A stretch of DNA of 64,000 nucleotides, taken from NCBI RefSeq assembly GCF_963677005.1, contig NZ_OY781616.1, positions 1,371,501-1,435,500 of the forward strand, written 5' to 3'. This document shows, in pieces, positions 16,149 through 51,852 of the stretch (the stretch's first letter is position 1; each line of letters starts with the position of its first letter). A program made the translations under genes and the position numbers. The notes beneath the pieces are model-generated. The model did no database searches. It worked only from the letters and a program-made list of their open reading frames with translations, and was not told the DNA's origin. The DNA comes from Maridesulfovibrio sp. (GTDB lineage: Bacteria; Desulfobacterota; Desulfovibrionia; Desulfovibrionales; Desulfovibrionaceae).

Positions 16149-16640
16149 CTATTTTTTCATGTTCACGAACTGGAACGGCATATCCAGATCACAATCCCTC
16201 ACCAGAGAGATAACCTGCTGCAGGTCGTCAAGCTTCTTACCGGTGACACGGACCTGTTCATCCTGAATGGCTCCCTGCACTTTCAGCTTGGAATCCTTGA
16301 TCATTTTTACGATTTTCTTGGCCGTATCCTTGTCTATGCCTTCCTTGAGCTTGATATCCTGTTTCAATCTGCCGTTTGATGTCGGCTCCAGTTTACCGAA
16401 ATCAAGTACTCTGGGATCAACCTTACGGCGGGTGAAGTGGGTGATAAGCATATCCCGCACAGCGTTGATTTTCATTTCGTCACCTGTAACAAGGCTTATG
16501 ACATTGGTCTTCTTGTTCAGGGACAGCTCGGTATTCACCCCGCGAAAATCATAACGGGTATCTATTTCTTTGAGCACGTTGTTTACAGCGTTATCAACTT
16601 CCTGCAAATCAACCTGGCTTACAATATCAAATGACGGCAT
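16149..16640 (-). CDS. yajQ: YajQ-family nucleotide-binding protein
   Basis: Full-length 163-residue member of the YajQ (DUF520) family. It opens [20 protein letters not shown], has the RYDFRG element near residue 30, and a [15 protein letters not shown] segment. YajQ is a two-domain ferredoxin-like protein; E. coli YajQ binds nucleotides or RNA, and the Xanthomonas homologue is a cyclic di-GMP receptor that interacts with transcription factors. A GGAG-type site is near the start. The STAS-domain gene lies about 50 bases upstream on the same strand. A c-di-GMP role here would fit the EIIC-EAL fusion elsewhere in the window, but no direct link is visible. Confidence 0.95.
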
Positions 16641-16693
16641 TAGATTAACTCCTTCATCTCGTCTTTTCTGCTTATTGACTCAAAAACCGGGTA

Positions 16694-17074
16694 TTAATTA
16701 ACTATCGTGCCGTCATAGTCAAGAGAAGGCACCGAAAGAAGCTTCCCCGTGCCTGTGGCATCTTCCACAGAGGAACGGATATCCATGACGGTATCTACTT
16801 TCGTGAGCTTGAAAAGCTGCCGGACTCTTGGCTGCAGACCGGCCACCATAAGATGCCCGCCCGGAGGAAAAGCCTTTACGATAGGCAACAGGCCGGCAAG
16901 ACCGCTTGAATCCATAAAACCGACATCGGAAAGATCTATCACCAGTTTATCTTCACCGGCTCCCACAATATCCAGCAGAATTTCCTTCAAATCCAAGGCA
17001 TTGGTTGCATCGACTTTGTCGGTATCAATTCTCAACACAAGGTAGCGTCCGGATCTTTTCCAGATCAGATTCAT
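16694..17074 (-). CDS. STAS-domain anti-sigma factor antagonist
   Basis: A 126-residue single STAS domain of the SpoIIAA/RsbV type: LVIDLSDVGFMDSSGLAGLL carries the regulatory Ser pair that is phosphorylated by partner kinases, and GGHLMVAGLQPRVRQLF is the typical following helix region. Such proteins work in partner-switching with an anti-sigma kinase or in chemosensory arrays; no partner is visible here. The ATG at 17074 with GGGAG eight bases upstream is favoured over the GTG at 17089. Its stop is 53 bases upstream of yajQ's start, so cotranscription is possible. Confidence 0.88.
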   Translation of the reverse strand: MNLIWKRSGRYLVLRIDTDKVDATNALDLKEILLDIVGAGEDKLVIDLSDVGFMDSSGLAGLLPIVKAFPPGGHLMVAGLQPRVRQLFKLTKVDTVMDIRSSVEDATGTGKLLSVPSLDYDGTIVN

Positions 17075-17233
17075 ACCTTTTTCTCCCACATTGTCGGCTC
17101 ACAGCCCGACCCCGGCACAACAATTTTTTGTTGAAATGTGAAAAAGAATAGACATACGCATCACCGGAAACGTAAAAGCACCAAACAGTGTGCATGTCAC
17201 AACTATAAGTACCATCACAATGAAAGGAGATCA

Positions 17234-17539
17234 ATGCAGATGTATATTGTTAATCTCACCTACATTAAGCCGCTTTCCGAGATCGATGCTTTCCTTGAGA
17301 AACACGTTGAATTTCTGATCCGACAATATGAAAAAGGAATTTTTATTGCTTCCGGCCGCAAAGTACCGCGCAACGGCGGAATAATACTCGTCCGCAATAT
17401 AGATCTTGACGAACTGGAATCGGTACTGTCCGAAGATCCGTTCTATATCAACGGAGTTGCGAATTACGAAGTCACCCAGTTCATCCCGACCATGATGGCG
17501 AAAGGGCTTGAGTCCCTGAAGGATGAGCCGGGCTGCTGA
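17234..17539 (+). CDS. YciI-family protein
   Basis: A 101-residue protein of the YCII-related fold (dimeric alpha-beta barrel-like): MYIVNLTYIKPLSEIDAFLE, a central GIFIASGRKVPRNGGI with the conserved SG and a DPFYINGVANYEV stretch matching the DPF motif of the family. Some members are dehalogenase-like or dioxygenase-like, most have no known reaction. AAAGGAG at 17225-17229 fixes the start at 17234 although the frame is open further upstream. Monocistronic, divergent from the STAS gene. Confidence 0.88.
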   Translation: MQMYIVNLTYIKPLSEIDAFLEKHVEFLIRQYEKGIFIASGRKVPRNGGIILVRNIDLDELESVLSEDPFYINGVANYEVTQFIPTMMAKGLESLKDEPGC

Positions 17540-17779
17540 GAATTATGCATCCTTTGCTGCATCCGAACATGAGGCATAGGAGAATGTGTTCATTCGCCGG
17601 GAAATTAAAGCGGTTAATGACGGTAGAAAAGCCCTGTTCCATCATATTGAGGCCAACTCCAATAGCAGAAGCCTCCATTCCCGTAATAGAAGGCTGTCAC
17701 CTGTGAAATTTAAAATCAGCTGTCAGGAAAATATGTTTGTGGCATAATTTACTATTTAGAAATGTGTGGCGGGATCACA

Positions 17780-18166
17780 CTATGCCAATAGAAACACAAA
17801 TAAACCAAAGCTTGACGCTAAGTATAAATATTTAAATATGCCTATTGAATCTATTGTTAAATCAACGTGTGGACCAACCCCAACATCAATTTTTTTTACA
17901 ATTGTATCTAGAGCACATTTAAAATCTATGCATTTAGGTTGAGCCCTGAAGAGTATTAAACTGTAAGAGAGAGATATGAATATCGGGAACAATAGAGCCC
18001 AAATCAAATATTCATTTTTATCTTTATTTTCAATAATATAAACAGCAACTCCAGACATGATAGCATTAACAAAAAACGCACTTGTCAAAACCATATTTAA
18101 ATAAAATTTGTGAAGATCACATAGCATCTTATATTGGTTCAATAGTAATTCTTTATCTTCAGTCAC
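17780..18166 (-). CDS. Small AT-rich membrane protein, unknown
   Basis: A 128-residue protein with about four hydrophobic segments (near residues 22-45, 52-72 and the C-terminal 110-128) and charged loops. The GTG start has AAGGAG nine bases upstream, which supports expression. Its composition is visibly more AT-rich than neighbouring genes, and the 3' fragment of a tRNA-Lys lies about 240 bases away, so it is probably acquired DNA. No family recognised; small membrane proteins of this type occur in defence islands and in SLATT-like families, but I see no motif that decides it. Confidence 0.6.
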   Translation of the reverse strand: MTEDKELLLNQYKMLCDLHKFYLNMVLTSAFFVNAIMSGVAVYIIENKDKNEYLIWALLFPIFISLSYSLILFRAQPKCIDFKCALDTIVKKIDVGVGPHVDLTIDSIGIFKYLYLASSFGLFVFLLA

Positions 18167-18406
18167 TTATAGCTCTCCTTATTTTGGTTATTTTTAATTT
18201 AAATTATTATCATGCAAAAGCAATATAAAAAACATTCAGTTGTTGGATTTTATGTTTTTTTCAAATAGCAAAACAATTAAGGGAATCTTGCAAAAATCAA
18301 CATGGGAAAGAAAAAGTGGAAAATTTGAGCTTAATCAAACATTTTTCACTTTTTCCGATTTTATGGGGAAGAGTAAGGGGAAGGCAGATTTTGGAAAAGC
18401 TACAGG

Positions 18407-18459
18407 TGGTAGGCCACAAAGGACTTGAATTTTCAACCAATGGATTAAGAGTCCGCTGC
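18407..18459 (-). pseudogene. 3' fragment of tRNA-Lys(CTT), likely attachment-site remnant
   Basis: Read on the minus strand, 18459-18407 has the order of the 3' part of a tRNA: anticodon-stem 5' side GCGGA, loop CTCTTAA (anticodon CTT), TCCATTGGTT, a T-arm with TTCAAGTCC, acceptor strand GTGGCCT, discriminator A and an encoded CCA. Nothing like a D-arm or 5' acceptor strand lies upstream of it. The T-stem (GAAAA against CCTTT) and one anticodon-stem pair are mispaired, all explained by G-to-A or C-to-T changes from a normal tRNA-Lys. Such 3' ends are what integrases leave at the far end of an island. Confidence 0.75.
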
Positions 18460-18507
18460 CGAAACCGGATGTTGCAAGTTCCAATAGAAAGGAATCTGGA
18501 TCATGTG

Positions 18508-18540
18508 CGGTATCCTGACCATTGTCATGACAGGATACCG
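18508..18540. repeat. Inverted repeat next to the tRNA fragment
   Basis: CGGTATCCTG and CAGGATACCG are 10-base perfect arms with a 13-base loop that itself includes TGTCATGACA overlap. It lies 28 bases past the racemase stop. No T-tract on either strand, so a terminator role is uncertain. Confidence 0.6.
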
Positions 18541-18567: not shown

Positions 18568-19641
18568 CTATTTTAAATTGATGGAATCGAAATGCGCTTC
18601 GAGAATCGAATCAATCTTTTTCTCCCAATCATTTTGCTGAGCAAGAAAATTTGATGAAAGCGATGAAACCTTTTCTGCAAAATGGGGAACTTCGCCAACG
18701 CCGAAAAAAGTCGGCAAATGCATGTAACTTCCCTCCAGCCTTCTGCCGCGCTTATCAAGATACTTTGCAGTCAGACTGATCACACGGGATTGAATGTCCG
18801 CCAGTTCGCCTAGGCTTTCAACCTGAAACACAGCCGGAGGAAACCAGTCGGTATGGCTGCCCAAACTCATATCAACCTCTCCGCCAGACGTACATGTATC
18901 GCCTGCTGCGACCAGTTTACGAGCCAGAACAGAGGAAGCGTCCACAACTTCTATAGAGCGCGGAATCAATCCGTCACGTCTGAAACGAATGAACCTTTCC
19001 GGGGTCAGCACTAATGGAAGCTCTGTGCAGCCAAGCACCACGTGACTGTATTTTTTCCTTTCGTACTCGTCACACAACACCTCACAAATCAGAGACTGTG
19101 CTTCGGCCGTAATCTTGGCGGTTTTTATGCCGAACTCGGCATCGTAAATCGCGGACATTATTTTACGCTGGTTTCCGGCAGAAGCTCTCAAGGCAGTCAC
19201 GCCGCATTTTTCAAGGGCTGTTTGATATAGTCCGGAATCAACAAGACTGGTAACCCCGAGCACCAGCACCCTGCCGCCGGTTTCCCGGAAGGTTCCGGCA
19301 GTTTCGACAATCATGTCAACAAACTCTGCCGGCACATTTCCCATCACCCTGCGAAACAGATCATGAGCGCTGTTGCAGGCCAGCCCGACTGCCGAACAAC
19401 CGAGATGACACATCAGCCGAGCGGTATAATCGGCGGTATCGGCCCTGCGCAGTTCCGGCTCGTCCGTATCCGCCCAGTCACATCCGACTTCCTTCGGCTT
19501 GTAAGCCAGCCTTGAATTACCGTACACAACGTAAGCATTGCCTGTATTTCCCGAAACGCAGCTCATCTTCAGGGCAAGATCCACCATGGCTTCATTGCCG
19601 AGGCCACCTATCAGCCCGATTACTTTTCTGTTGCCGTTCAT
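18568..19641 (-). CDS. Aspartate/glutamate racemase-family protein
   Basis: A cofactor-independent amino acid racemase-like protein of 357 residues. The two catalytic cysteines are present: ACNSAH (Cys89) and LGCTELP (Cys205). The N-terminal GLIGGLG and a VLGVTSLVDSGLYQ strand fit the Asp/Glu/hydantoin racemase superfamily. It is about 120 residues longer than typical Asp racemases, with an extra C-terminal region, so substrate may differ. The ATG at 19641 has AAAGG eight bases upstream; an ATG at 19647 would be too close. It is divergent from the HTH regulator and next to a peptide transporter and M20 peptidase, suggesting it interconverts D and L residues released from imported substrates. 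Confidence 0.85.
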   Translation of the reverse strand: MNGNRKVIGLIGGLGNEAMVDLALKMSCVSGNTGNAYVVYGNSRLAYKPKEVGCDWADTDEPELRRADTADYTARLMCHLGCSAVGLACNSAHDLFRRVMGNVPAEFVDMIVETAGTFRETGGRVLVLGVTSLVDSGLYQTALEKCGVTALRASAGNQRKIMSAIYDAEFGIKTAKITAEAQSLICEVLCDEYERKKYSHVVLGCTELPLVLTPERFIRFRRDGLIPRSIEVVDASSVLARKLVAAGDTCTSGGEVDMSLGSHTDWFPPAVFQVESLGELADIQSRVISLTAKYLDKRGRRLEGSYMHLPTFFGVGEVPHFAEKVSSLSSNFLAQQNDWEKKIDSILEAHFDSINLK

Positions 19642-19781
19642 CTCCATGCCTTTGCGTATATATTTACAATTTTCATACTAACGGTTTTTTGGTGTAAAAA
19701 AAAATTAACCTTTGTTTCATTTTTTGTTAACACCTATACAAGTTACTTCAAATGTAATCAATAACAGAATATACTAAGAAA

Positions 19782-20807
19782 ATGAGAAAATATCCCAGCA
19801 CCCTGATAGGCATCATTGAAAAAAGCGGACTCAACCTGAACAGCATAAGCAAACTTTCCGGCGTTTCCAATACCTACTTGACCAAACTGAGCAGAAACAA
19901 GATCAACCATCCCGGAAAAGACAAGATAGCTTCCATCCTTCTGGCCCTGAACCACCGCATAGCAGACATAAACTCAGTGTTGGCGGAGTACGACTATCAA
20001 CCGCTTAACCGGCACGACATCCCGGCTATTCTGAACAACAACAGGCGCAGAAAGGTGGAAGGACCGCTGATGCCCCACTATGACCGGCTGTATTTCGAAC
20101 TCATGCTGGTTGTGTTTGAACATATCGGCGGTTCCAAAATTGTTATAAAAGATACACCGAGCGGCATATACCAGCCCTATGAACTGTATATGATGAAGGA
20201 ATTCCAGCTTGAACTGGACGGGGAGGCAGAACGTTTTCTGTATAACCTCACCGGTCAGGTTGTTCTGGAACGACTGCAGCTTTTCAAGGAAAACTGCACC
20301 AAAGGACACAAGATAACCACATATATGTGCAGGGAATGCCTGGAAGAAACCCTTGATAAAACAATCGGGAAAGCTGTTGCGAATAACGATATGGGCAGAT
20401 TGCAGCTTTTTTCGAGATTTCTGGCCAACGCGACCGCCTGCGCAATCAAATTTCCGGAGCAGCACAAACTGCGTATAACCGAGCGCTGCTCCATGTTCGA
20501 ATTCCTTATTCAGAACGCGGACGGCAAGAAACCGGTACTCAACTTCACGGGCAACAGCAGACATTCATTCAACAATCCATACGACCAGCACAACCTTGAA
20601 GGCTTTTCCACAACCTCCCCGAACATGCTGAACCTCTTCAAGATAGAAACGGATATGTGCGAAGCCGCCGCATCCAAAGACCGGCGCAACACTCCGGAAG
20701 GATTCAGGGATTACATATCCGGCAAATTTGACGAATGGAAAGTTGGCCACCTCTTCGATGAAGCCATGGAAGAGCTTATGGATACTTCCGAATTCAAAAT
20801 ATTCTGA
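19782..20807 (+). CDS. HTH transcriptional regulator with unknown C-terminal domain
   Basis: A 341-residue protein whose first 70 residues form a Cro/CI-like helix-turn-helix (LNSISKLSGVSNTYLTKLSR as the core). The remaining 270 residues are helical, soluble and contain a few Cys residues (MCRECLEE) that could bind metal or an effector; I do not recognise the domain. It is transcribed divergently from the racemase over a 140-base AT-rich gap and leads into the Dpp-type transporter, so it likely controls both. The ribosome site is weak (AAG near the ATG). Confidence 0.75.
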   Translation: MRKYPSTLIGIIEKSGLNLNSISKLSGVSNTYLTKLSRNKINHPGKDKIASILLALNHRIADINSVLAEYDYQPLNRHDIPAILNNNRRRKVEGPLMPHYDRLYFELMLVVFEHIGGSKIVIKDTPSGIYQPYELYMMKEFQLELDGEAERFLYNLTGQVVLERLQLFKENCTKGHKITTYMCRECLEETLDKTIGKAVANNDMGRLQLFSRFLANATACAIKFPEQHKLRITERCSMFEFLIQNADGKKPVLNFTGNSRHSFNNPYDQHNLEGFSTTSPNMLNLFKIETDMCEAAASKDRRNTPEGFRDYISGKFDEWKVGHLFDEAMEELMDTSEFKIF

Positions 20808-20895
20808 ACCGGTAAAATTCACGCATTATCAGCAGGATAAAAAGTTGCGTCAAACTCGGTTTAATTTTTTTTTCAACCATATGCATTGTTTTTAT

Positions 20896-20924
20896 TTGAC
20901 TAAAGCTTAACTTTTTTATTAATT
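20896..20924 (+). promoter_or_regulatory. Candidate promoter of the peptide ABC operon
   Basis: TTGACT at 20896-20901 and TTAATT at 20919-20924 are separated by 17 bases, about 40 bases before the first ATP-binding protein gene. The -35 is strong, the -10 is weak. Confidence 0.35.
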
Positions 20925-20964
20925 CACATTTCAGGTTATCAAAACATGCCAACGAGACTCTAGA

Positions 20965-21963
20965 ATGACACTATTTGACAAAAACGCAATTTTAAAAGTC
21001 CAGAACCTCCAGACTCACTTTGTTTCTTCCGATGGAGTGGCAAAGGCAGTGGACGGAGCCACCTTTTCCCTCTCTAAGGGTAAAGTTCTGGGAGTGGTCG
21101 GAGAATCCGGTTGCGGAAAAAGCGTGACGGCCCAATCCATCATGAGGCTCGTCCCCTGCCCTCCGGGAAAAATCGCCGGGGGCGAAATCCTGTTTGACGG
21201 TATGGACCTGACCAGGCTTTCCATTGCGGAAATGCGCCATATCCGTGGAAACAGGATATCGATGATATTTCAGGAACCCATGACTTCACTCAACCCGGTT
21301 TTCACCATTGGAGACCAGCTTGCGGAAATGTTCATTCTTCACAGAAAAATGATCATGAAGGATGCGCTGGACGCTTCTGTGGAAATGCTTGCCAAAGTGC
21401 AGATTCCCGCACCTGAAGCAAGAGTGAAGGAGTATCCCCATCAGCTTTCCGGGGGCATGCGCCAGCGGGTAATGATCGCAATGGCTCTTTCCTGCGACCC
21501 AGAAGTGCTTATCGCTGACGAGCCGACCACAGCCCTTGACGTGACCGTGCAGGCCCAGATTCTGGACCTTATCCTGAAACTCAAGGACGACTTCGGAACC
21601 GCCGTGGAAATGATCACCCACGATCTGGGCGTAATTGCGGAAACAGCGGACTCCATAGTCGTCATGTATGCGGGCAAGGTTGTGGAGCAGGCCGATACCA
21701 TAGAATTATTCGAGAACACTCTTCATCCTTATACGCGTGGGTTGCTGAACTCCACTCCGGTTCTCGGACGCCGCACCGCAGGAGAATTTGAAAGACTCAA
21801 TGAGATCAAGGGCATGGTTCCCAGCCTGTACAACCTTCCTTCCGGCTGCAAATTTCAGGCTCGGTGTCCGGCAGCAATGCCGATATGCCGTGAGCAGGAC
21901 CCTGAGTTAACGGAAATAAACTCCGGTCACGCCGTCAGGTGCTGGCTGCATATCCCACATTAG
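20965..21963 (+). CDS. Dipeptide/oligopeptide ABC transporter ATP-binding protein (DppD-type)
   Basis: A 332-residue ATPase of a peptide importer. Walker A is GESGCGKS (near residue 50), the signature is LSGGMRQRV, and Walker B is [12 protein letters not shown]. The C-terminal extension ([14 protein letters not shown], four Cys) is the oligopeptide-ABC C-terminal region typical of OppD/DppD. The following gene starts three bases after its stop. Together with the next four genes it forms a complete importer; the pair of ATPases acts at the inner face of the membrane. Confidence 0.95.
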
Positions 21964-21965
21964 TT

Positions 21966-22931
21966 ATGAATGATTTCTTAATACAGGCAGAAGACCTCAA
22001 AGTTCACTTCCCTATAAAAAAAGGGCTGCTCTCACGGACCGTAGGCCATGTTTACGCGGTTGACGGTGTCGACCTTGAACTGCAGAAGGGCGAGACGCTG
22101 GGCATTGTCGGCGAGTCGGGATGCGGAAAAAGCACCGCGGGACTGGCTCTCATGAGACTCATCCAGCCCACCGGCGGAACAGTACGCTGGAAAGGCCGGG
22201 ATATGGGCAGTATGTCCGCGAAGGAAATGCGGGCTCTGCGCAAGGAAATGCAGCTCATTTTTCAGGACCCGTACTCCTCGCTCAACCCGCGCATGACCGT
22301 CAATCAGATTCTATCCAATCCCATGGACGTCCACGGACTCTACAGCGGCAAGGAACGCGAGGACAGACTCGCATTCCTGCTGAATACCGTCGGGATGAAT
22401 GCCGATCAGGGCCTGCGCTATCCGCATGAATTTTCAGGAGGCCAGCGCCAGCGGCTGGGAATCGCCCGCGCCCTTGCGCTCAACCCTTCGGTAATAATAG
22501 GGGACGAACCTGTTTCGGCACTGGATGTGTCCATACAGGCCCAGATCATCAACCTGCTCATGGACCTCAAGCAGAAATTCGACCTTTCAATGATCATCAT
22601 TTCCCATGACCTGGCCGTAGTGGAATACATCTGCGATCGCATCGTGGTAATGTATCTGGGCAAAGTGGTGGAAACAGGTTCCTACAGCAATATATACAGT
22701 GACCCCAAGCACCCCTACACACAGGCTCTTCTTTCCGCGGTTCCCATCCCGGACCCGCGACGCAAAAGGTCTAGGCAGATTCTTACCGGGGACGTACCCA
22801 GCCCCATAAATCCGCCCACCGGCTGCCGTTTTCACACACGCTGCCCCAAGGCAACCGAGATCTGTTCACAGGAAATTCCGTCGGTCACCGATTTCGGTGG
22901 CGGACATCAGGCTTCATGCCATTTGTTCTGA
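21966..22931 (+). CDS. Dipeptide/oligopeptide ABC transporter ATP-binding protein (DppF-type)
   Basis: The second ATPase of the importer, 321 residues. Walker A is GESGCGKST, the signature FSGGQRQRLGIARAL and Walker B VIIGDEPVSALD. The N-terminal IKKGLLSRTVG segment and the C-terminal RCPKATEIC cluster are typical of OppF/DppF. The ATG at 21966, right after the upstream stop, is chosen over an upstream in-frame ATG at 21939 lying inside dppD. Confidence 0.95.
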   Translation: MNDFLIQAEDLKVHFPIKKGLLSRTVGHVYAVDGVDLELQKGETLGIVGESGCGKSTAGLALMRLIQPTGGTVRWKGRDMGSMSAKEMRALRKEMQLIFQDPYSSLNPRMTVNQILSNPMDVHGLYSGKEREDRLAFLLNTVGMNADQGLRYPHEFSGGQRQRLGIARALALNPSVIIGDEPVSALDVSIQAQIINLLMDLKQKFDLSMIIISHDLAVVEYICDRIVVMYLGKVVETGSYSNIYSDPKHPYTQALLSAVPIPDPRRKRSRQILTGDVPSPINPPTGCRFHTRCPKATEICSQEIPSVTDFGGGHQASCHLF

Positions 22932-22981
22932 TTTAACCGGCACGATTCAAAGGCAAAAACCCTTCACAGGAGGATGAAAAG

Positions 22982-24496
22982 ATGAAACGTTTGTTGTTCG
23001 TTGCAGCTCTTGTTGCAATGCTGGCATTACCTTCTTTCGCCATGGCCAAGGCTGATCTGGTCATCGCCATGGATGCACCGCCCAAATCCATGAACCCGCA
23101 TGCGTACTCTTCCGACGCGAACTATTCCTACATGTCCAACTTCTTTGACGGACTTCTCCAGCGCACCATTCCCGACGGAAAACTCGCTCCCGCGCTTGCT
23201 ACTGAATGGAAACGCGTGGACGGCAAAACATGGAAATTCAAACTGCGCAAGGGCGTGAAATTTCACAACGGCAACGCATTCAATGCCGAAGACGTAAAAT
23301 TCACCTTCGAACGCATGAAAGACCCCAAGTATTCAAGATTCCTGAATATGGGTAACGCAATTGAATCCATTGAAACCCCGGACGAATACACCGTAATTTT
23401 CCACACATTCAAACCGGTACCCTGGTTTGCGGAAACCATGGCCCAGATGTTTATCGTCGACAAGGAATCTTCCCTGAAACGCGATGACGGCGATTACAAC
23501 ACCCACCCCATCGGCACAGGCGCATACATCTTTGATGAATGGGTAAAAGGTTCCTACCTGCGCATGCATGCCAACCCCGACTACTGGGAAGGCGCACCCA
23601 AGTACAAAACCGTTGAAATGCGTCCCATCGTTGAGGAAGCAACCCGTTTCGCAGCCCTGGCCGGTCATCAGGTCGACATCGTGAACGGTGTTCCGCTGAC
23701 CCTCTACGAACGCATCAGCAAGATGCCCAATGTTGAAACCATCACCCGTCCCGCACGTCGCTGCATCTACCTCCAGGTTTCCAACAAGCCCGGAACCCCC
23801 TTCGCTGATAAACGTGTAAGACAGGCTCTTGCCCACGCCATCAACGAAGACGAAATCATCGCCAAGGTAATGCAGGGACATGCAGCCAAGGCCGCACAGA
23901 TTCCCGACGTTCCCACAATCGGTTACGACGGCAGCATCAAACGCCTTGAATACGATCCGGCACTGGCCAAGAAACTTCTTGCGGAAGCCGGTTACAAAGA
24001 CGGTTTTGAAATCTCCCTCGCCGGTCCCAACGACCGTTACATCAACGATGAAAAAATCTGCGAAGCCATTGCAAAATACCTTGCAAAAATCGGCCTGAAA
24101 GTAACCCTCGACGTCAAACCCAAATCCATATTCTTTGACGAAACCTCCGAGTTCAAACACCCCTTCTATCTGATCGGCTGGTTTGACGGTTCCTACGACT
24201 TCGGCCGCACCGCTGAAAAGAACGTACACACCTGGGACCAGGATAAAGGTATGGGCGCATACAACGGCGCAGTATACTCCAACCCCGCAGCCGACAAGCT
24301 GATTATCGAATCCTCCTCCATCCTCGACCGCGCAGAACGCGAAAAAGCACTGCAGAAACTCAACAGGATGATCATGGAAGACGTAGCCTTCATTCCCCTG
24401 CACTATCAGGAGGATATGTACGCTGTGGTCAAGGGCAAAGGCATCAAGTTCACTCCCCGCCCCGACCGTTGGATCGTTGCAAAAGAAATAAAATAA
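22982..24496 (+). CDS. Peptide-type ABC transporter substrate-binding protein
   Basis: A 504-residue periplasmic solute-binding protein of the SBP_bac_5 (DppA/OppA) family, with a signal peptide ending in SFAMA. Typical blocks are LAPALATEWKRVDGKTW, FKLRKGVKFHNG, FNAEDVKFTFERM, HPIGTGAY and DKRVRQALAHAIN. Codons are strongly C-ending compared with neighbours, a sign of high expression. AGGAGG precedes the ATG. A perfect GC-rich hairpin follows the stop and probably stabilises its mRNA relative to the permease part. Possible ligands are di- or oligopeptides, opines or glutathione-like compounds; the sequence does not decide. Confidence 0.95.
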   Translation: MKRLLFVAALVAMLALPSFAMAKADLVIAMDAPPKSMNPHAYSSDANYSYMSNFFDGLLQRTIPDGKLAPALATEWKRVDGKTWKFKLRKGVKFHNGNAFNAEDVKFTFERMKDPKYSRFLNMGNAIESIETPDEYTVIFHTFKPVPWFAETMAQMFIVDKESSLKRDDGDYNTHPIGTGAYIFDEWVKGSYLRMHANPDYWEGAPKYKTVEMRPIVEEATRFAALAGHQVDIVNGVPLTLYERISKMPNVETITRPARRCIYLQVSNKPGTPFADKRVRQALAHAINEDEIIAKVMQGHAAKAAQIPDVPTIGYDGSIKRLEYDPALAKKLLAEAGYKDGFEISLAGPNDRYINDEKICEAIAKYLAKIGLKVTLDVKPKSIFFDETSEFKHPFYLIGWFDGSYDFGRTAEKNVHTWDQDKGMGAYNGAVYSNPAADKLIIESSSILDRAEREKALQKLNRMIMEDVAFIPLHYQEDMYAVVKGKGIKFTPRPDRWIVAKEIK

Positions 24497-24508
24497 CATA
24501 CAGCATAG

Positions 24509-24530
24509 CAGGGCCGCTCCGGCGGCCCTG
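24509..24530 (+). promoter_or_regulatory. mRNA hairpin between binding protein and permease genes
   Basis: CAGGGCCGC and GCGGCCCTG are perfect 9-base arms with a TCCG loop, 12 bases after the binding-protein stop. There is no T-tract, so it probably does not fully terminate; such hairpins usually protect the abundant upstream message or act as attenuators. Confidence 0.6.
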
Positions 24531-24542
24531 TCAAGATTCATT

Positions 24543-25508
24543 ATGGTATCATACATTTTTCGAAGATTGTTGCAGGGACTACTGGTACTTCTGGCCGTCT
24601 CGTTCGTATGCTTCTGCCTGTTCCGCTATACCGGGGACCCGGTGCTCATGCTGGCCGGTAAATACGCCACACAGCAGGAACGCGAAATGGTGCGCAAGGC
24701 CTACGGTCTGGATCAGCCGCCCTATGTGCAGTACGTCAAATTTCTCGGCGGAGTGCTCAAGGGCAATTTCGGTAAATCATACATAAGCCAGGTGGACGCC
24801 CTGGACACCATTCTGGAACGTTTTCCTGCCACCTTCGAACTGGCACTGACGGCAATCTTCATTTCCTTCACCGTCGGAGTCGGGTTGGGGATAGTAGTTT
24901 CCATACGACCCAAAGGATTCGTCAGCAGATCGATAATGGCCGGTTCTCTGATGGGGATATCGATACCCACGTTCCTCATCGGTATTCTGCTGGTCATGTT
25001 CTTCTCGGTATATCTGGATATTCTTCCATCCTTCGGGCGGGGAGAGACCGTTACCATAGGCCCGTGGAGAACCGGGCTGCTGACCCTGGACGGGCTCAAG
25101 CACATCATACTTCCGGCCCTGACCCTTTCCGGGTACCAGCTTGCGGTTATGCTGCGCCTTACCCGTGCGGGCATGCGCGAAGTCATGGGAGAGGAATACA
25201 TCAAGACCGCATGGGCCAAGGGACTTTCCCCGGCCAAGGTAATCCTTAAGCATGCGTTGAGAAACGTTATGATCCCCGTAGTGACCATCGCCGGTCTTTC
25301 CTTCGGGGAACTCATCGCCTTCTCCATTGTCACCGAAACCATTTTCCAATGGCCGGGAATGGGCAACCTGCTCCTGACTTCGATATTCGAAACCGACCAG
25401 CCGATTGTCGTTACCTACATAATGCTGGCTTCTTTCATAATCCTGTTCATCAACATTATGGTCGACCTGCTCTACGCCGTGCTCAACCCAAAAATCCGTT
25501 ACGATTAG
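24543..25508 (+). CDS. Peptide ABC transporter permease (DppB-type)
   Basis: A 321-residue inner-membrane permease with six hydrophobic segments. The N-terminus IFRRLLQGLLVLLAVSFVCF and DPVLMLAGKYATQQE are typical of DppB/OppB, as is the EAA-type loop EEYIKTAWAKGLSPAKVILKH that contacts the ATPases. The C-terminus DLLYAVLNPKIRYD is diagnostic of the family. It overlaps nothing and lies eight bases before the second permease. Confidence 0.95.
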   Translation: MVSYIFRRLLQGLLVLLAVSFVCFCLFRYTGDPVLMLAGKYATQQEREMVRKAYGLDQPPYVQYVKFLGGVLKGNFGKSYISQVDALDTILERFPATFELALTAIFISFTVGVGLGIVVSIRPKGFVSRSIMAGSLMGISIPTFLIGILLVMFFSVYLDILPSFGRGETVTIGPWRTGLLTLDGLKHIILPALTLSGYQLAVMLRLTRAGMREVMGEEYIKTAWAKGLSPAKVILKHALRNVMIPVVTIAGLSFGELIAFSIVTETIFQWPGMGNLLLTSIFETDQPIVVTYIMLASFIILFINIMVDLLYAVLNPKIRYD

Positions 25509-25516
25509 GCTCACAC

Positions 25517-26395
25517 ATGAACAGATCATTATTTCAAAAACGTCTGAACAGTTTCAGGAACGACACGCCGGCCATGATAGGGGCATCAATCCTGCTGGTA
25601 TTCATCACAGCCGGGATACTGGCCCCCCTGCTGGCTCCCATGAACCCCTATGATTTAAGTTCCGTGGATCTGGGCAACTACCTTATGCAGCCCTTCTGGA
25701 TGGACGGGGGATCAATCTCTTTCCCGCTGGGTACGGACGATCAGGGCCGCGGAATACTGTCCACAATCCTCTACGGCATGCGCACTTCGCTCGTAGTCGG
25801 AGGGTCCGTGGTTGCCATTGCCGGCAGCATAGGCATAACGCTCGGCATGATCGGCGGATACTACGGCGGGATCATCGATGCATTCGTCATGCGCTGCGCC
25901 GATACTGTTTTCTCCTTCTCGACCACCCTGCTTGCGGTTCTCCTGCTTGGGGTCTTCGAAACACGGGGAGTGGGCACGGTAATTTTCGCCATCTGCATTG
26001 CGGACTGGGTCAAATACGCCAGAACGATTCGCGGAAGCGTGCTGGAGATCAAGGACAACCCGTACGTCATGGCCGCGAAAGCTTCGGGAGCCAGAGACTT
26101 CCGCATCCTTTTCCAGCACATCCTGCCCAATGCGCTGCCGCCTATTTTCGTAGTCATGGCCGTGGACCTGGCAGTGGTCATCATGCTTGAGGCCACCCTC
26201 AGCTTTCTTGGAGTAGGAGTACCTCTTACCGAACCGTCACTGGGCATGATGATATCCATAGGCAAGAACTACATTTACGCCGGAATGTGGTGGATGACCC
26301 TTTTTCCGGGAGCCGCCCTCATCCTTCTCGTAGTGGGCATCAACCTTTTTGCCGACTGGCTTAGAGATGAAATGAATCCCAAGCTCAGCCGCTGA
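25517..26395 (+). CDS. Peptide ABC transporter permease (DppC-type)
   Basis: A 292-residue second permease. The cytoplasmic N-terminus has the FRNDTPAMIGASIL pattern of DppC/OppC, the periplasmic loop has FPLGTDDQGRGILS, and the EAA loop is NPYVMAAKASGARDFRILFQH. The C-terminus is LFADWLRDEMNPKLSR, a near-standard ending for the family. The frame is open upstream inside dppB, but the ATG at 25517 starts where homologues start. Confidence 0.95.
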   Translation: MNRSLFQKRLNSFRNDTPAMIGASILLVFITAGILAPLLAPMNPYDLSSVDLGNYLMQPFWMDGGSISFPLGTDDQGRGILSTILYGMRTSLVVGGSVVAIAGSIGITLGMIGGYYGGIIDAFVMRCADTVFSFSTTLLAVLLLGVFETRGVGTVIFAICIADWVKYARTIRGSVLEIKDNPYVMAAKASGARDFRILFQHILPNALPPIFVVMAVDLAVVIMLEATLSFLGVGVPLTEPSLGMMISIGKNYIYAGMWWMTLFPGAALILLVVGINLFADWLRDEMNPKLSR

Positions 26396-26435
26396 CACAA
26401 AAACCAGCAACCATAGAGTTACACGGAAACAGACA

Positions 26436-27581
26436 ATGACCGAAGAGCAACAGAACACATTCGACCGGTTCGTCGCCGATCTGAAAACACTGGTCAATAC
26501 CGACAGCGCAAGCGAAAACCATGACGGAATCGCCGAAGTGGCCGAATTCCTCAAAGCCAAGCTGGAAAGAGCGGGACTGAAAGCTGAAATCACCCGCGAA
26601 GGCAAAGACGGCACCCCCTGCCTCAAAGCCTGCACCGAGTCCAAAAACGGACGTTACGACTTCATGTTCCTGGGACACATGGACACTGTGTTTCCCACCG
26701 GAGAAGCTGCCAAGCGCCCCTTTTCCATTGAAGGAAAACACGCCCTCGGCCCCGGAGTATCCGACATGAAAGGCGGACTGCTCGTTGCCGTAAACGTAAT
26801 TGAACGGCTGAAGGAGCAGGGACTGCTCGATAAAATAGCAATCTGCGTTTGCTTCAACGGCGATGAGGAAATCGGTTCCCCGGATTCAAAAGCACTGATT
26901 GAAAAAACATCCGAATCCTGCGACAGGGTTTTCGTCTTCGAACCGTGCCGCATCGGTTTCCGCCACGTCCTGCATCGCAAGGGCGGCGGAAGAATAAAGG
27001 TTACCGCACACGGCATTTCCTCCCACGCAGGAGCCGACCCGGAAAAAGGCGCCAACGCTCTGGTCGAACTGGCAAGCCATATCCCGGCAATCCATGCTCT
27101 CAACGACAATGGCGACGGTATTACCGCCCAGTGCACGGTAATCAGGAGCGGAGAAAAAACAAACATCATCCCCGACACCGCGGTACTTGATGTTGATGTG
27201 CGCGTAGCCACCATGGATGAAATGAAAGTCGTGGAAGATTTCTTCCGCAGACTTCCGGAAAAGAATTACATCGAAAACACTTCGATTACCGTTTCCGGCG
27301 GAGTGGACCGCCCGCCCATGGAATGCACGGATAAGACTGTAGAACTTTGGAATATTCTCGCAGAGGAAGGCCGAAAGGCCGGTGTGGAATCTTCCTACAT
27401 CTCCACCGGAGGCTGCTCGGACGGAAACTGGACCGCAGCCAAAGGAATCCCCACCATTGACGGCATGGGCACGGTGGGAGCCAATTCCCATCGTCTGGAC
27501 GAGTATGTAGAGCTTGAAAGTATCATACCCTCGATAACAATGATTGCAAACAGCTGCCGAAAAATGATCATGGGGGATTAA
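26436..27581 (+). CDS. M20-family metallopeptidase (CPG2-like)
   Basis: A 381-residue M20A peptidase of the glutamate carboxypeptidase/ArgE/DapE type. Zinc ligands and catalytic residues are visible: GHMDTV (His81, Asp83 supporting), GVSDMKGG (Asp110), GDEEIGS (Glu144 catalytic, Glu145), FEP (Glu169) and NSHRLDE (His352). No signal peptide, so it acts in the cytoplasm on an imported substrate, probably removing an acyl group or a C-terminal residue such as glutamate. It follows the second permease by 40 bases and ends the transport operon at a strong terminator. Confidence 0.92.
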   Translation: MTEEQQNTFDRFVADLKTLVNTDSASENHDGIAEVAEFLKAKLERAGLKAEITREGKDGTPCLKACTESKNGRYDFMFLGHMDTVFPTGEAAKRPFSIEGKHALGPGVSDMKGGLLVAVNVIERLKEQGLLDKIAICVCFNGDEEIGSPDSKALIEKTSESCDRVFVFEPCRIGFRHVLHRKGGGRIKVTAHGISSHAGADPEKGANALVELASHIPAIHALNDNGDGITAQCTVIRSGEKTNIIPDTAVLDVDVRVATMDEMKVVEDFFRRLPEKNYIENTSITVSGGVDRPPMECTDKTVELWNILAEEGRKAGVESSYISTGGCSDGNWTAAKGIPTIDGMGTVGANSHRLDEYVELESIIPSITMIANSCRKMIMGD

Positions 27582-38029: not shown

Positions 38030-39685
38030 TCAGGACTTCCAGCCGGGACCATTGAGGACAATACGGTTCAGAGCGAGCGCCATTTCCGGAGCAGCCATCT
38101 TGTCGGTCACCACCTCTATGTAGCATCCGCCTGTACATGCTTCGGCGGCCTCCAGAGCAGCATCAAGCTGCCTGTTGTTTACGACCTTTTGGCAGTACCA
38201 GTCTTTCAAGCCGAAAGCGGCGGGCAACAGGCTGTAATTCCACTCGGCAAGATCGTTGTAATAAATGTCCGGATTTTCGCAGAGCATGCGTTCAATCAGA
38301 TATCCGTCATTATTCAGGCAGATTATTACCGGCTTGAGTCCGAATCTTCCGAACTGCCCTATTTCCTGTACGGTCATCTGATGCGATCCTTCGCCTGTTA
38401 TAAGCAGAACTCTTCGGTCCGGAGCTGCCATGGCAGCACCGAATGCAGCAGGTGTGGCCCAGCCGATTGCGCCCCACAGGGTCTGGTTGAAAAATACCGC
38501 ATCTTCGGGAAGTCTGGCATTTGCAAGCCCCATGGAAGCGGTTCCTGTTTCGCCCATGATTATGTCATTCCGTTTAAAGAAACGTTCGATGCGGGGATAA
38601 AGCGAGGCCGGTGTAATGCTGTCATCAGGAGCTCCATGCGGATATCCGAGTCCGGCAGGACGAAACGGCACAGGAAGACCAAGATTGCCGATACGCTGGC
38701 AAAGCTCCTGCAGAACATCCTGCATCAGTATTTTATGATAAACAGCATGGCCTATGCACACCCGGTCAGGATAAATACGTATTTCTCGGTGGGTATCTAT
38801 TTTGACGGTAAAGGCGCCGGTATTGATATCTGAACGTATGGCACCGAAACTGACTACAAGATCGCAGTTTTCAACGGTCTGCTGCACGCCCGGATCAAGA
38901 ATGCGTCCGTTATAAACGCCTATAAAATTGGGATGGGCTTCGGAAAGAGTCCCCTTGGCCATAAACATGGAAGTGAAAGGCAATCCGGACTTCTCTATAA
39001 AATCGAGCATGGAACTTTGCAGCCCGAACCTCCCTATCAGGGCTCCGACCATGACCATTGCCGACCCTGCCTTCCCGAGTTTTTCGAGAATCAGTGAAAC
39101 CGCCGTTTCCAAAGTATCAGGATCGCTTGCGACAACTGGTCTGGAATACGGCTTTGTGCAGCCGAGTTCCATAAGAGCATGGTCGGCCGGAACGGCTATG
39201 TACACGGGTTTCCGTTCGGTAAGAGCGGCTGTAATCACCCTATCGACTTCCGAAACGGCATTTTCGTAAGAAAGAATAGTGCTAGCGCAGACCACCGGCC
39301 CGGCCATTTTGTGGAAAAGGTCAAATTCCCCGTTGCCCAGGGTATGGTGTATGATGTTCCCGTTCTGCTGCAGGGAACATTTGGGCATGCCTACTATGTG
39401 AAATACAGGCAGATTCTCGGCGTAACTCCCGGCGATGGCGTTTATCGCACTGAGTTCGCCGACACCGTAAGTCGTGCAGACTGCAGCAAGACCTTTTATT
39501 CGGGCATAGCCATCTGCTGCGTACGCGGCGTTAAGTTCATTGCAGCAACCGATCCAACGCAATTCCGGATCGTTGCAGATGGCATCATTGACAGGGAAGG
39601 CATAATCTCCGGGGACACCGAAATAATCGGTAACCCCGATCTCCTTGAGCCGCTCCAGTAAGTGAAGGATGACAGTTCCGGACAT
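38030..39685 (-). CDS. Pyruvate/indolepyruvate decarboxylase-type ThDP enzyme
   Basis: A 551-residue ThDP-dependent 2-oxo acid decarboxylase. Residues match those of Zymomonas pyruvate decarboxylase position by position: Asp27 (VPGDYAF), Glu50 (CCNELNAAYAADGYA), His113-His114 (NGNIIHHTLGNGE), a GEGSHQ-to-NND ThDP/Mg motif and the following Glu in GYLIER. This HH signature separates PDC/IPDC from acetolactate synthase. The reaction is decarboxylation of pyruvate, an aryl pyruvate or a branched-chain 2-oxo acid to the aldehyde; which one cannot be told here. GGGAG lies seven bases before the ATG. Transcribed alone. Confidence 0.92.
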   Translation of the reverse strand: MSGTVILHLLERLKEIGVTDYFGVPGDYAFPVNDAICNDPELRWIGCCNELNAAYAADGYARIKGLAAVCTTYGVGELSAINAIAGSYAENLPVFHIVGMPKCSLQQNGNIIHHTLGNGEFDLFHKMAGPVVCASTILSYENAVSEVDRVITAALTERKPVYIAVPADHALMELGCTKPYSRPVVASDPDTLETAVSLILEKLGKAGSAMVMVGALIGRFGLQSSMLDFIEKSGLPFTSMFMAKGTLSEAHPNFIGVYNGRILDPGVQQTVENCDLVVSFGAIRSDINTGAFTVKIDTHREIRIYPDRVCIGHAVYHKILMQDVLQELCQRIGNLGLPVPFRPAGLGYPHGAPDDSITPASLYPRIERFFKRNDIIMGETGTASMGLANARLPEDAVFFNQTLWGAIGWATPAAFGAAMAAPDRRVLLITGEGSHQMTVQEIGQFGRFGLKPVIICLNNDGYLIERMLCENPDIYYNDLAEWNYSLLPAAFGLKDWYCQKVVNNRQLDAALEAAEACTGGCYIEVVTDKMAAPEMALALNRIVLNGPGWKS

Positions 39686-39792
39686 AACTTATCTCCCGAA
39701 TTAATAAGGTACGACAAAGAAATACGTATACTGTATAACAATGCCACCGGGATTACTTTATGTCCATGGTATTCTTAAATTAGAGCACTTCC

Positions 39793-41976
39793 CTATACTC
39801 TTCTTTCATACTCCCTGCCGACTGCAAAGCCGACACTGCTGTTATCCTGGGCCCATTTATCGAAAAAAAGCCTGCAAAGATCAGGAGAAACCGGTCGGCT
39901 GAAATAAAACCCCTGAAACCGATCACCGCCTATCTCCCTGAAACACCTGAACTGTTCTCCGGTTTCTACGCCTTCAATAATCACCTTCAGGTCGAGTTTG
40001 CGGCATAGGCCCAGTATACTTGCAACAATATGCATATTAATACCGGTAACGGATTCAAGGGTGAGTGAACGGTCTATCTTGATCTTATCGACATCCATCT
40101 CACGCAGGTAACGCAGGGAAGTATGCCCCATTCCGAAATCGTCAATTGCAATGCGGACACCCAGACGGCGCAGTTCCCTCAGACGCTCTGCTGTTTCCCT
40201 GCGGGAAGTAAGCGCTTCAGATTCCGTAATCTCGATTTCCAGACATTTAGGATCAAAACCTGTTCTGTCGATTACGCCGGAGACTTTTTCGGCAACTTTC
40301 CCGGTAATCAAAGAAGGGGTGAAGTTGACTGATACCCGGACAGGTTTTCCGAGCATCATTCCCCACTCCGCCCCCTGTTTGCACGCTTCCGTAAGTACAA
40401 AATAACTGAGTTCCTCTATGCAACCGAGATCCTCGGCAAGAGCAATCGTTAGTTCCGGAGAGATAAAACCGAAACGGGGATGATTCCAGCGCAACAGAGC
40501 TTCAGCGCCCAGACTTTCCGGGTCCTCGGTGTTGACCTGCGGTTGATATACGAGGAAAAACTGATTTTTCTTGCGCACAGCCTGAAGAAGATCCTTGGCC
40601 AGTGATCTGGCAACACTTCCTTCCTCTCCGTTCATGGACAGACAGCGGCAGGCCCTGGAAGCCACCGACTTCTTTGCCGCCTGCAGCAGGCTGGACATGC
40701 TGCATCGAAAATTGGCCTCTTCCATATGATCTGAAAGACTCACAAAAGGCAGGTAGATACATACGCCGGCCATGATGAGAATAAGCTGCATAATGACGCC
40801 GTTCCACGAACCGGATGCATAGTATCCGCTTATAAAGACCGGAGTGGTCCAGTGAAATGAAGTCGTCACCAGCGGAATAAGTCCCAGAGAACATGCCCCG
40901 TAGGCAATGCTGTAAAGTATGGCCGGGGTCAGAATAAAGGGAATCATGAACACGGGGTTGAGAATCAGCGGAATTCCGAACAGCAGCGGCTCGTTGATAT
41001 TGAACAGACCGAGCCCCAGAGCCATGCCGGAAAATTTTCTGGACCTGGAATTACGCCCATAAAGCAGCAAGGCCAAAATCAGGACCAAGGTAGCTCCTGA
41101 ACCGCCCATAACGGCATAGGCATCAACAAATCCTTTGGTGAGGATATTCCCCCCGTCAGCATTTCCCGAGAGGATATTCATATTGTCCACAAGGTTGGTG
41201 GCAAAAATCCTGCTTTCAACACAGTGGAGCATATTCGGGCCGTGTGCACCGAAAAACCAGAGCAGTTGGCACAGCAAAAGATACAGAACTCCGGTGAACA
41301 GCTGGTTGTCACTCAAGGCAAAAATAGCCATGACCAGATCCTGCATCATATCTGAAAAGGACACGAACCCGACACTGTTCACAACAAGCCTGATCAACGC
41401 GAAAACAGCGAGCACCCCCATACAGGCCGGGGCAACGGAAAAAACCTGTACGGAAAAAGGATCGTAACCGGCTCCTGCTGCCGGCAGTCTTGATGAAAGC
41501 CTGACAATCCTGTGCAAAAGCCAACTGGAAACGTAAGCGGTGAATATGGACTCAGGCATGCTGGCCGACAGAGAAGTCACCTCTGCAAAGGAACTTATCC
41601 CCCACCCCGCAGCAAGAGTAAAAAAAGATCCGGAAGCGACTACTACGTATAAAAAAGGATGAATTGACGCCTTTTCATCACGAGCGTTATACATCTCGCC
41701 CAGACACAGACTCATGCTGCAAAGCATTGCCAGCGAGGTAATTCCGTAAGTTCCGTCAACAATAGCGGACAGTGCGTGACGAAAACTTTCGGACATGATT
41801 CCCCGAACCGATTCGAACGGAAAATTCAGTAGACACAGGGCAAATGACCCAACGACGATGAGCGGAAAAACCAGCAGCAGAGAACGCCGCATGGCTTTAA
41901 AAAAGACAAGGCTGCCCAACTCTTCGAAAAAAGAGTTGAGCTGCAAGATACCGAAAAACAGTTTCCCTTCAGTCAT
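39793..41976 (-). CDS. PTS EIIC (cellobiose/lactose type) fused to EAL phosphodiesterase
   Basis: A 727-residue fusion. Residues about 1-420 form a PTS EIIC sugar channel of the lactose/cellobiose type: FFGAHGPNMLHCVES and the signature FNINEPLLFGIPLILNP. Residues about 475-715 form an EAL c-di-GMP phosphodiesterase with apparently complete active site: EALLRWNHPR, VNFTP, EITESEA, IDDFGMGHTSL, DKIKIDRS, EGVET and QGFYFSRP. The ATG at 41976 is preferred to a GTG at 42006. No EIIA, EIIB or HPr genes are near, so the EIIC part may act as a sugar sensor that sets c-di-GMP turnover. It is divergent from a porin gene. Confidence 0.92.
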   Translation of the reverse strand: MTEGKLFFGILQLNSFFEELGSLVFFKAMRRSLLLVFPLIVVGSFALCLLNFPFESVRGIMSESFRHALSAIVDGTYGITSLAMLCSMSLCLGEMYNARDEKASIHPFLYVVVASGSFFTLAAGWGISSFAEVTSLSASMPESIFTAYVSSWLLHRIVRLSSRLPAAGAGYDPFSVQVFSVAPACMGVLAVFALIRLVVNSVGFVSFSDMMQDLVMAIFALSDNQLFTGVLYLLLCQLLWFFGAHGPNMLHCVESRIFATNLVDNMNILSGNADGGNILTKGFVDAYAVMGGSGATLVLILALLLYGRNSRSRKFSGMALGLGLFNINEPLLFGIPLILNPVFMIPFILTPAILYSIAYGACSLGLIPLVTTSFHWTTPVFISGYYASGSWNGVIMQLILIMAGVCIYLPFVSLSDHMEEANFRCSMSSLLQAAKKSVASRACRCLSMNGEEGSVARSLAKDLLQAVRKKNQFFLVYQPQVNTEDPESLGAEALLRWNHPRFGFISPELTIALAEDLGCIEELSYFVLTEACKQGAEWGMMLGKPVRVSVNFTPSLITGKVAEKVSGVIDRTGFDPKCLEIEITESEALTSRRETAERLRELRRLGVRIAIDDFGMGHTSLRYLREMDVDKIKIDRSLTLESVTGINMHIVASILGLCRKLDLKVIIEGVETGEQFRCFREIGGDRFQGFYFSRPVSPDLCRLFFDKWAQDNSSVGFAVGREYERRV

Positions 41977-42253
41977 CACCGATCCCTGGCGTTGTTTTGA
42001 CCTCACCGGAAAAGATTTTTCGTAACGGCTGATTCAAAATTACAATAATTCAGACATGATGCACGGCAGCACGAAAAGAACATCCTTCAAACTACACCTG
42101 TTCCTCCCGAAAAACAGGTACAGATCATGAAGATACTGCATGCCTGATATACAACCGCTAGATAATCCCACTTCCGGAACCCCTTGATAATTTCAATACA
42201 TGAGATTAGGGAAACAGTAAATCACGACTTCATTATAACTTGGAAATGGCTCA

Positions 42254-43501
42254 ATGAGATCTACCAAACATTTCTTGATACTCCTTTACGGACTTCTATT
42301 CCTGCTGTTCACAAATTTACAAACAGCATCGGCTGCAGATACACCTCAGAGAAATGCAACCAGGGATTACGGTAAAATATCAGCCCGGATAAGAATGTAC
42401 TATTTTCTGCAGGAAGACAGCCCGTCAGGAAATTCATTCGGCAAATCAAAGGAATCTTTTGCTATCGGCGGACAGCTGAAATACGAAACACCATGGCTGG
42501 CCGACCATTTCGGCGGTACGGTCAACGGATTTCTCGCCGCCCCGCTCTTTGATGACCTTAACCGTGAGCGATACTCCGGAGCAGGTGTTCTGAATAACAA
42601 GAACCAGGGATACGCGGTCATCGGGGAGGCCTTTTTCAGAGCCAGATACGCCGGGACCATCGCTAAACTATACAGACAAAGAATTGAAACGCCTTACGTC
42701 AACGGCAACGACTCCCGTCTGTTGCCCAGCACTTTCGAAGCCTACGGACTGGAATCGAACGACATTTCCGGACTCAAGCTGCATGCCGCGTGGCTGGACA
42801 AGATAAAAAAGAGAGACAGCGACGAGTTCATCAGCATGACCGAAGCCGCAGGAGCCGACACTGATGGAGGGACTGTCATGCTCGGTGCCGACTGGAAAGG
42901 CGAGAAGACCGCTTTGCGGCTCTGGAACTACTATACGCCGGACATGGACAACACTCTTTATGCCGAAGCTAAATACAGTTTCGACATCAGCGATTCCCTT
43001 GAAGGACATGTGCGCTTTCAAGGAGTCAACCAGCGGAACACGGGAGAAAACATCCTCGGAGTATATGATGCCCTTGAAGGGGGACTGCTCCTTGGCATCA
43101 AGTTCATGGGGCTGACGGCCGACATAGGCGGAAGCATTACCGATGACACCGACAACATCCTCACGCCATGGGGCGTGAACCCGTTTTTCACCCACATGAT
43201 GATCGGAGATTACAACCGTGCCGGAGAAAAAGCCCTGTACCTTGCCCTTGCTTACGATTTCGCAAGACTCGGTCTGAAAGGATTTTCAGCCGGACTTAAA
43301 ACGGCTTTCGGCGAGACACCGAACTCCGGCCCAAACGCATCCTATGACCGCAGAGAGTGCGACCTCAACTTCAATTACAATTTCGATGGAGCGCTGGACG
43401 GTTTTTCGATTAAAAATCAGGTCGGATACCAGGATGCAGACCGTTCAATGGGCGGCAAGGACGTGGTTCAGGTCCGGCTCAGACTTCAGTATGATTTTTA
43501 G
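42254..43501 (+). CDS. OprD-like outer-membrane porin
   Basis: A 415-residue outer-membrane beta-barrel protein: signal peptide ending in TASAA, then alternating amphipathic strands, and a C-terminal Phe (RLRLQYDF) as required for barrel insertion. The early ISARIRMYYFLQED, FRARYAGTIAKLYRQRIETPYVN and the DADRSM end fit the OprD family of substrate-specific porins. It may supply small organic acids or peptides. Divergent from the EIIC-EAL gene and convergent with the following coiled-coil protein, 18 bases apart. Confidence 0.8.
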   Translation: MRSTKHFLILLYGLLFLLFTNLQTASAADTPQRNATRDYGKISARIRMYYFLQEDSPSGNSFGKSKESFAIGGQLKYETPWLADHFGGTVNGFLAAPLFDDLNRERYSGAGVLNNKNQGYAVIGEAFFRARYAGTIAKLYRQRIETPYVNGNDSRLLPSTFEAYGLESNDISGLKLHAAWLDKIKKRDSDEFISMTEAAGADTDGGTVMLGADWKGEKTALRLWNYYTPDMDNTLYAEAKYSFDISDSLEGHVRFQGVNQRNTGENILGVYDALEGGLLLGIKFMGLTADIGGSITDDTDNILTPWGVNPFFTHMMIGDYNRAGEKALYLALAYDFARLGLKGFSAGLKTAFGETPNSGPNASYDRRECDLNFNYNFDGALDGFSIKNQVGYQDADRSMGGKDVVQVRLRLQYDF

Positions 43502-43519
43502 TCCGGCTGGATAAAAAAT

Positions 43520-44650: not shown

Positions 44651-45315
44651 ATTCCAACCTCGTAAAGCATAAGAATCAGGAATGTTGGCGCTAAAGCCTA
44701 AACATCACAAAACAACGCAAGTACAGATCTATCTCGGAAATTACACAAAAAACACCACTGTCAAATGCCTTAGGCCACCGGATCACGCTATGCAGTTACC
44801 TTTGTAACAAGTGAATGGCAACAATTCCACATTCGAAAAACGGATACAATAAATCCATTTTCCAACAACGGCATGGCGTTTTTTTATTCTTTAAAAATAT
44901 ACTGTTACACAAATATTTGCCATTAAAAAAAGACTGTCGTTAAAATATCCCCACAAAAAATAGATATTGTGAAAATAATAACAATTATAATAAACATGGA
45001 ACATAATATATATGTTTTTGTTCTTCAAAACTGGACATACGATCAGCACAGGAATATAAAAATCCGCCGTAAGGGTTATCTTTCACACCCCTGTCCAACT
45101 CATCCCAAGTACAGGAGTCTTTTGCAGATGGCCAACCTATAAACCGTCTGCGATTCCGGTACGGTTGTTCCTTGAATTTTTCCGTAACTGCCTCCCAGTG
45201 CGGATTTCCAGCTAAAGGCTTTTTCCGCACTTCCGGGCCACTCTGATACGCCGCGGAAATTGTCTCACCTCTACTTCATCCCGGCCCGTATACCGATGAA
45301 AAAATGGAGAGATCT
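44651..45315. other. Gene-poor interval before nhaB
   Basis: A divergent gap. It holds a GTTAC/GTAAC pair at about 44796-44810, AT-rich sequence near 44870-45000 and, just before nhaB, CGGGCC (45235-45240) able to pair with GGCCCG (45283-45288) in the 5' leader. A weak minus-strand frame at 44985-45230 has only a GTG start and no ribosome site. No gene supported. Confidence 0.5.
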
Positions 45316-46938: not shown

Positions 46939-46974
46939 TCCGCGAAGCTCCTGCTGAGCAGGACCTGTAGCGGA

Positions 46975-47018
46975 AAAGAGGGGAAAAACTTCAGCAGAAG
47001 TTTTTCCCCTCTTTCTTT
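46975..47018 (+). terminator. Terminator of nhaB
   Basis: Perfect 18-base arms (46975-46992, 46997-47014; core AGAGGGGAAAAACTTC) with an AGCA loop, followed by CTTTT. It lies 37 bases after the stop. Confidence 0.9.
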
Positions 47019-49570: not shown

Positions 49571-49610
49571 GGGAAACAGATTACCTGTCCGCCTTTTCAC
49601 ATCACCAACA

Positions 49611-49654: not shown

Positions 49655-49672
49655 GCAATATATCAAGGCACA

Positions 49673-51848: not shown

Positions 51849-51852
51849 TTAA

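Follow-up and report, generated by a model that had tools for sequence, protein, structure and literature searches.

A decayed tRNA-Lys(CTT) 3' fragment and an adjoining element end as probable remains of an integrative mobilizable element in Maridesulfovibrio

The window, i.e., the whole stretch of 64,000 nucleotides analyzed here (G000:C1:1371501-1435500), belongs to a Maridesulfovibrio genome that consists of one contig of 4.26 Mb. The left core flank of the site is formed by the genes for YajQ (DUF520), a STAS protein and YCII (16149-17539), assigned by Pfam and by conservation: YajQ is present in 17 out of 17 and YCII in 15 out of 17 genomes of the genus, and both are linked in most of them. 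Next comes a region of debris with a G+C content of 35% (17500-18499). On the plus strand, it holds a scrap of an IS3-family insertion sequence (17631-17777), comprising the last 38 codons of OrfB (17631-17744; OrfB residues 256-293, E = 1.7e-8) and the adjoining end of the insertion sequence. The DNA of this scrap is 75-79% identical to copies in G006, G007, G014 and this genome, where a fuller OrfB copy lies at 2.575-2.576 Mb. An AT-rich ORF of 128 amino acids with membrane-like stretches (17780-18166, minus strand) separates the IS3 scrap from a conserved non-coding sequence (18251-18402, minus strand). The initial annotation had described this ORF as an AT-rich orphan membrane gene, and indeed no relative was found in Pfam, NCBIfam, PADLOC, PHROGs, GTDB or IMG/VR; that it is element cargo is a guess. 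Then follow the tRNA-Lys(CTT) fragment (18407-18459, minus strand), directly to its right an inverted repeat (18509-18539) and subsequently a racemase gene. The latter is part of a 9-kb cluster of racemase, Opp transporter and M20 peptidase genes (18568-27581; Pfam) that is present at other loci in G004, G011 and G014. From the IS3 scrap onwards, these features lie in a lineage-specific insertion of 20.5 kb (17540-38029) between the YCII and TPP enzyme genes, which is absent here in the relatives examined and has the fragment, the conserved non-coding sequence and the IS3 scrap at its left border. The insertion also holds, among others, an FAD oxidase/Fe-S gene, and its racemase resembles cysteate racemase, with a score below the family cut-off. 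The right core flank (38030-47037), delimited by gene order in relatives, comprises genes for a TPP enzyme, an EIIC-EAL protein and OprD as well as two unnamed genes. In the EIIC-EAL protein (39793-42006), an EAL domain is fused to the membrane domain of a PTS EIIC component.

The 53 bases at 18407-18459 read GCAGCGGACTCTTAATCCATTGGTTGAAAATTCAAGTCCTTTGTGGCCTACCA on the minus strand and are a fragment of tRNA-Lys(CTT), equivalent to tRNA positions 24-76. As described in the initial annotation, the block contains the anticodon loop CTCTTAA, the T-loop TTCAAGTC and an encoded CCA. The sole intact tRNA-Lys(CTT) gene of the genome was located by ARAGORN at G000:C1:1438476-1438551 (minus strand; 66976-67051 in window numbering), which places it 3 kb beyond the window. 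Fragment and gene lie 48.5 kb apart in direct orientation and are identical in 49 of the 53 bases. This similarity is beyond chance, as a search of the genome with the fragment retrieved the intact gene (93% over 55 bases, E = 6.7e-17), all other matches being chance matches of 14-19 bases. Phage records gave short tRNA matches only. Four out of four changes are G>A or C>T, as had been proposed, if the fragment is compared with the allele common in the genus (TTGAAGG...CCTTCG), but not if it is compared with the genome's own tRNA, from which it differs by three G>A changes (42, 52 and 53) and one A>G change (49). In the T-stem, two A.C mismatches result from the GG>AA change, and therefore the fragment should be unable to work as a tRNA. 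ARAGORN predicts no tRNA within the window, and neither ARAGORN nor Rfam recognizes a complete cloverleaf at the fragment; Rfam, searched with E up to 5, returned no tRNA there and one chance lncRNA match. A 5' half is not detectable, in line with the initial annotation: the 35 bases upstream of the fragment resemble tRNA positions 1-23 no better than shuffles do (p = 0.33). Nor is there a tRNA-Lys at the equivalent spot in the relatives examined.

The conserved non-coding sequence (150 bp) sits on the 3' side of the fragment and aligns to the left ends of integrative mobilizable elements that target tRNA-Lys or tRNA-Leu in relatives. The parts of this element family are a first gene, here called F11 (about 300 amino acids, no Pfam match), which starts directly after the non-coding left end, and genes for an HTH protein, DUF3987, a MobA-type relaxase and a tyrosine integrase. 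A complete element in G011 spans 12 kb from the intact tRNA-Lys to a tRNA-Lys fragment, in the order tRNA-Lys, terminator, left end, F11, HTH (PF12728; PHROG excisionase/regulator), DUF3987, MobA-type relaxase (PF03432), AAA protein, Fic, HipA, HTH, tyrosine integrase (PF00589) and tRNA-Lys fragment. In the tandem arrays of G003 and G008, another integrase is followed by a tRNA-Lys fragment and, immediately after it, by the same left end. Behind the tRNA-Lys of G012, just a scar of the left end is found, and behind that of G006 a decayed F11. The left end also lies behind complete or fragmentary copies of tRNA-Leu(CAA) in G004, G005, G007, G013, G014, G003:C10 and this genome near 2.497 Mb. 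Because it is found behind two different tRNAs with the same first gene, it is part of the element rather than of the tRNA locus. A search covering 199 genomes of the bacterial family retrieved the sequence of 18251-18402 from the same genus only. Its identity to the tRNA-Lys-type ends is 85, 81, 78 and 77% (G011, G003, G008 and G012, respectively), while that to the seven tRNA-Leu-type ends is 66-75%. The left end in the window is thus nearer to all four ends of the former type than to any of the latter, and the two halves of the scrap (tRNA fragment and left end) therefore indicate the same target.

Partial copies of tRNA-Lys occur 3' of the tRNA in G001, G004, G005, G011 and G015, while G002, G003 and G008 have such copies on other contigs; G003, G004 and G008 contain tandem islands with internal tRNA-Lys fragments. 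Judging from these copies, tRNA-Lys is a repeated integration site in the genus. Loci of the genus-restricted element family were noted at G011:C3, G003:C15 and G008:C7, in G004, G013 and G005, and at 2.48-2.497 Mb of this genome. In G003:C10 (region 134000-148000), both target types flank one integrase gene, with a tRNA-Lys fragment and terminator (141057-141174) beside the integrase and a tRNA-Leu fragment and left end on its other side. We tentatively suggest, with rather less than even confidence, that the scrap might belong to an element family with a constant left end and first gene, two tRNA targets (Lys-CTT and Leu-CAA) and a terminator of its own that would restore both the tRNA and its termination upon insertion.

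Compared with its relatives, the copy in the window is strongly reduced. The intrinsic terminator (about 36 bp) that relatives have between left end and tRNA fragment is deleted. No match to F11, HTH, DUF3987 or relaxase was obtained with tblastn in the window, and no tyrosine integrase was found in the window or between the fragment and the intact tRNA (eight are encoded elsewhere in the genome). The 5' side of the fragment shows no convincing match to known element right ends (p = 0.09-0.67). Having the attachment core and left end of the family and none of its genes (F11, HTH, DUF3987, relaxase, integrase), the site is a remnant and not a member able to move.

The 48.5 kb between the fragment and the intact tRNA-Lys are largely core DNA, much of which is collinear with G001, G004 and G014. 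In several relatives, the YajQ-STAS-YCII cluster is followed by homologues of the genes from about 38-49.5 kb of the window, and in G014 only about 230 bp separate YCII from the TPP enzyme gene. The genes at 47162-62725 (acyl-CoA ligase-like, FAD protein, aminotransferase, MLE, DUF1611 and histidine kinase) keep their order in G001 (about 3747-3769 kb); there, the collinear stretch is followed by a tRNA-Lys fragment and an island of 40 kb, which lie next to the tRNA. In G004, the MCP and the DUF1611, MLE and aminotransferase genes lie just outside the outer tRNA-Lys fragment. The intact tRNA-Lys of the present genome retains its terminator; over this terminator and roughly 25 further bases, the sequence matches the outer flanks of the fragments in G001 and G011. 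As the genes and the flank beside this tRNA-Lys lie outside the islands of relatives, the locus looks like an essentially empty site. The MCP gene is separated from the intact tRNA-Lys by a gene for a HAD phosphatase and a fragment of a LysR-type regulator. The latter is truncated to its C-terminal substrate-binding part (genome 1437882-1438166) and lies between the HAD phosphatase gene and the tRNA.

The feature is very probably what remains of the left end of a now dead integrative mobilizable element, the tyrosine integrase of which targets the 3' half of tRNA-Lys(CTT). In its attachment site, an element of this kind would carry a copy of the tRNA 3' half that reaches from the anticodon loop to CCA, and its insertion would restore the tRNA gene while leaving tRNA fragments at the other junctions. 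Here, the interior (first gene, HTH, DUF3987, relaxase and integrase) would have been lost, with the attachment core and about 150 bp of the left end remaining, and rearrangement or insertion at a secondary site would have left the scrap where it is, with YCII on one side and the racemase cluster on the other, at a distance of 48.5 kb from the tRNA. As no element gene survives in the window, we infer the element from two short non-coding pieces, and the loss of its interior from this absence. The integrase origin of the fragment, in turn, is suggested by the element family and the established behaviour of tRNA-targeting tyrosine integrases (PMC4383910, PMC9897764). The scrap may have come to its present place by secondary-site insertion, by transfer with a piece of a tandem island or by another rearrangement. 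The old integration site proposed in the initial annotation is upheld insofar as the decayed 3' piece is of the type left by an integrating element, and its interpretation as an integration scar is supported. The proposed far end of an island reaching up to the intact tRNA does not hold, given the core genes and the lack of an integrase.

It is possible, albeit clearly less probable than this reading, that the scrap stems from an intact tRNA-Lys/left-end junction and was copied or moved by a rearrangement that broke inside the tRNA, without integrase action at this site. The identity to the tRNA extends five bases (GCAGC) further 5' than in nine fragments from relatives, which start at or after CGGACTC, and these five bases are a hint that the break occurred within a genuine junction of tRNA and element. 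For 45 upstream bases, an anchored alignment with the tRNA yields p = 0.06, against the p = 0.33 found for the tRNA 5' half alone. The sequence TTCGGCAG also occurs nearby in one family of element right ends, and the absence of tRNA-Lys from the equivalent spot in relatives likewise speaks against such an origin. Alternatively, the scrap could mark one border of the 20.5-kb insertion (17.54-38.03 kb), which would be a worn-down island or tandem-island remnant with the racemase-Opp genes as cargo. Scrap and IS3 piece lie exactly at its left border, and the tandem islands of G003, G004 and G008 provide a precedent for internal tRNA-Lys fragments. Yet, this origin is unlikely: the genome search with the fragment gave no second attachment copy near 38 kb, the block contains no mobile-element genes, the element interior would be expected on the YCII side of the fragment instead of the racemase side, and the racemase-Opp cluster is a normal chromosomal cluster in three relatives.

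The model of one old island that has lost its integrase and occupies the entire 48.5 kb as far as the intact tRNA-Lys, with the fragment as its displaced 3' end at the far side, is highly improbable and was rejected, because, although tRNA and fragment share strand and correct order and the fragment has no other partner in the genome, gene order in relatives contradicts it (homologues of about 38-49.5 kb directly after YajQ-STAS-YCII; 47-63 kb collinear with G001 and partly G004, whose islands lie elsewhere), no integrase was found in the interval, and the DNA just beyond the fragment is an element end and not a host flank. Of the expected intact copy with an integrase and an island in between, only the intact tRNA-Lys(CTT) on the same strand was found. 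On its 3' side, the fragment adjoins the left end of the element, where the proposed island would require a displaced host flank. In agreement with the published island rule, the fragment lies downstream of the tRNA and on the same strand (Islander, PMC4383910). Tested in this manner, the pair shows the orientation and the downstream 3' fragment of an island, but neither an integrase nor a variable interval.

For the window itself, this result is ordinary, and the site has no expected function today. What was a vague tRNA remnant can now be described as the scar of a definable kind of element. In addition, a textbook pair of tRNA and fragment can bracket mostly core DNA, which would mislead an island finder that does not check for an integrase and gene order. 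A more useful lead than the window site is the element family that recurs at tRNA-Lys and tRNA-Leu across the genus. A literature search for such islands in Desulfovibrio found no matching paper in the collection searched.

Three known systems can be compared with the locus. The truncated copy at 17631-17777 shares 38 C-terminal OrfB residues and adjoining DNA with IS3-family insertion sequences, but has no open transposase gene. With displaced tDNA fragments (Islander, PMC4383910; PMC9897764), the fragment has in common that it is a 3' piece from anticodon to CCA, on the same strand as, downstream of and of the same type as the intact tRNA. It differs from them in the lack of an integrase and of an island between tRNA and fragment, and in its position next to the left end of the element itself, surrounded by core genes and at a distance of 48.5 kb. 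Finally, like integrative mobilizable elements (IMEs; reviewed in PMC5704250), the related intact elements in G011, G003 and G008 encode a tyrosine integrase as well as a MobA/VirD2-type relaxase and have attachment sites in tRNA genes, their mobility being predicted. In contrast to IMEs, the copy in the window retains the attachment core and 150 bp of the left end and no element gene, and the site belongs to a well-known kind of molecular fossil.
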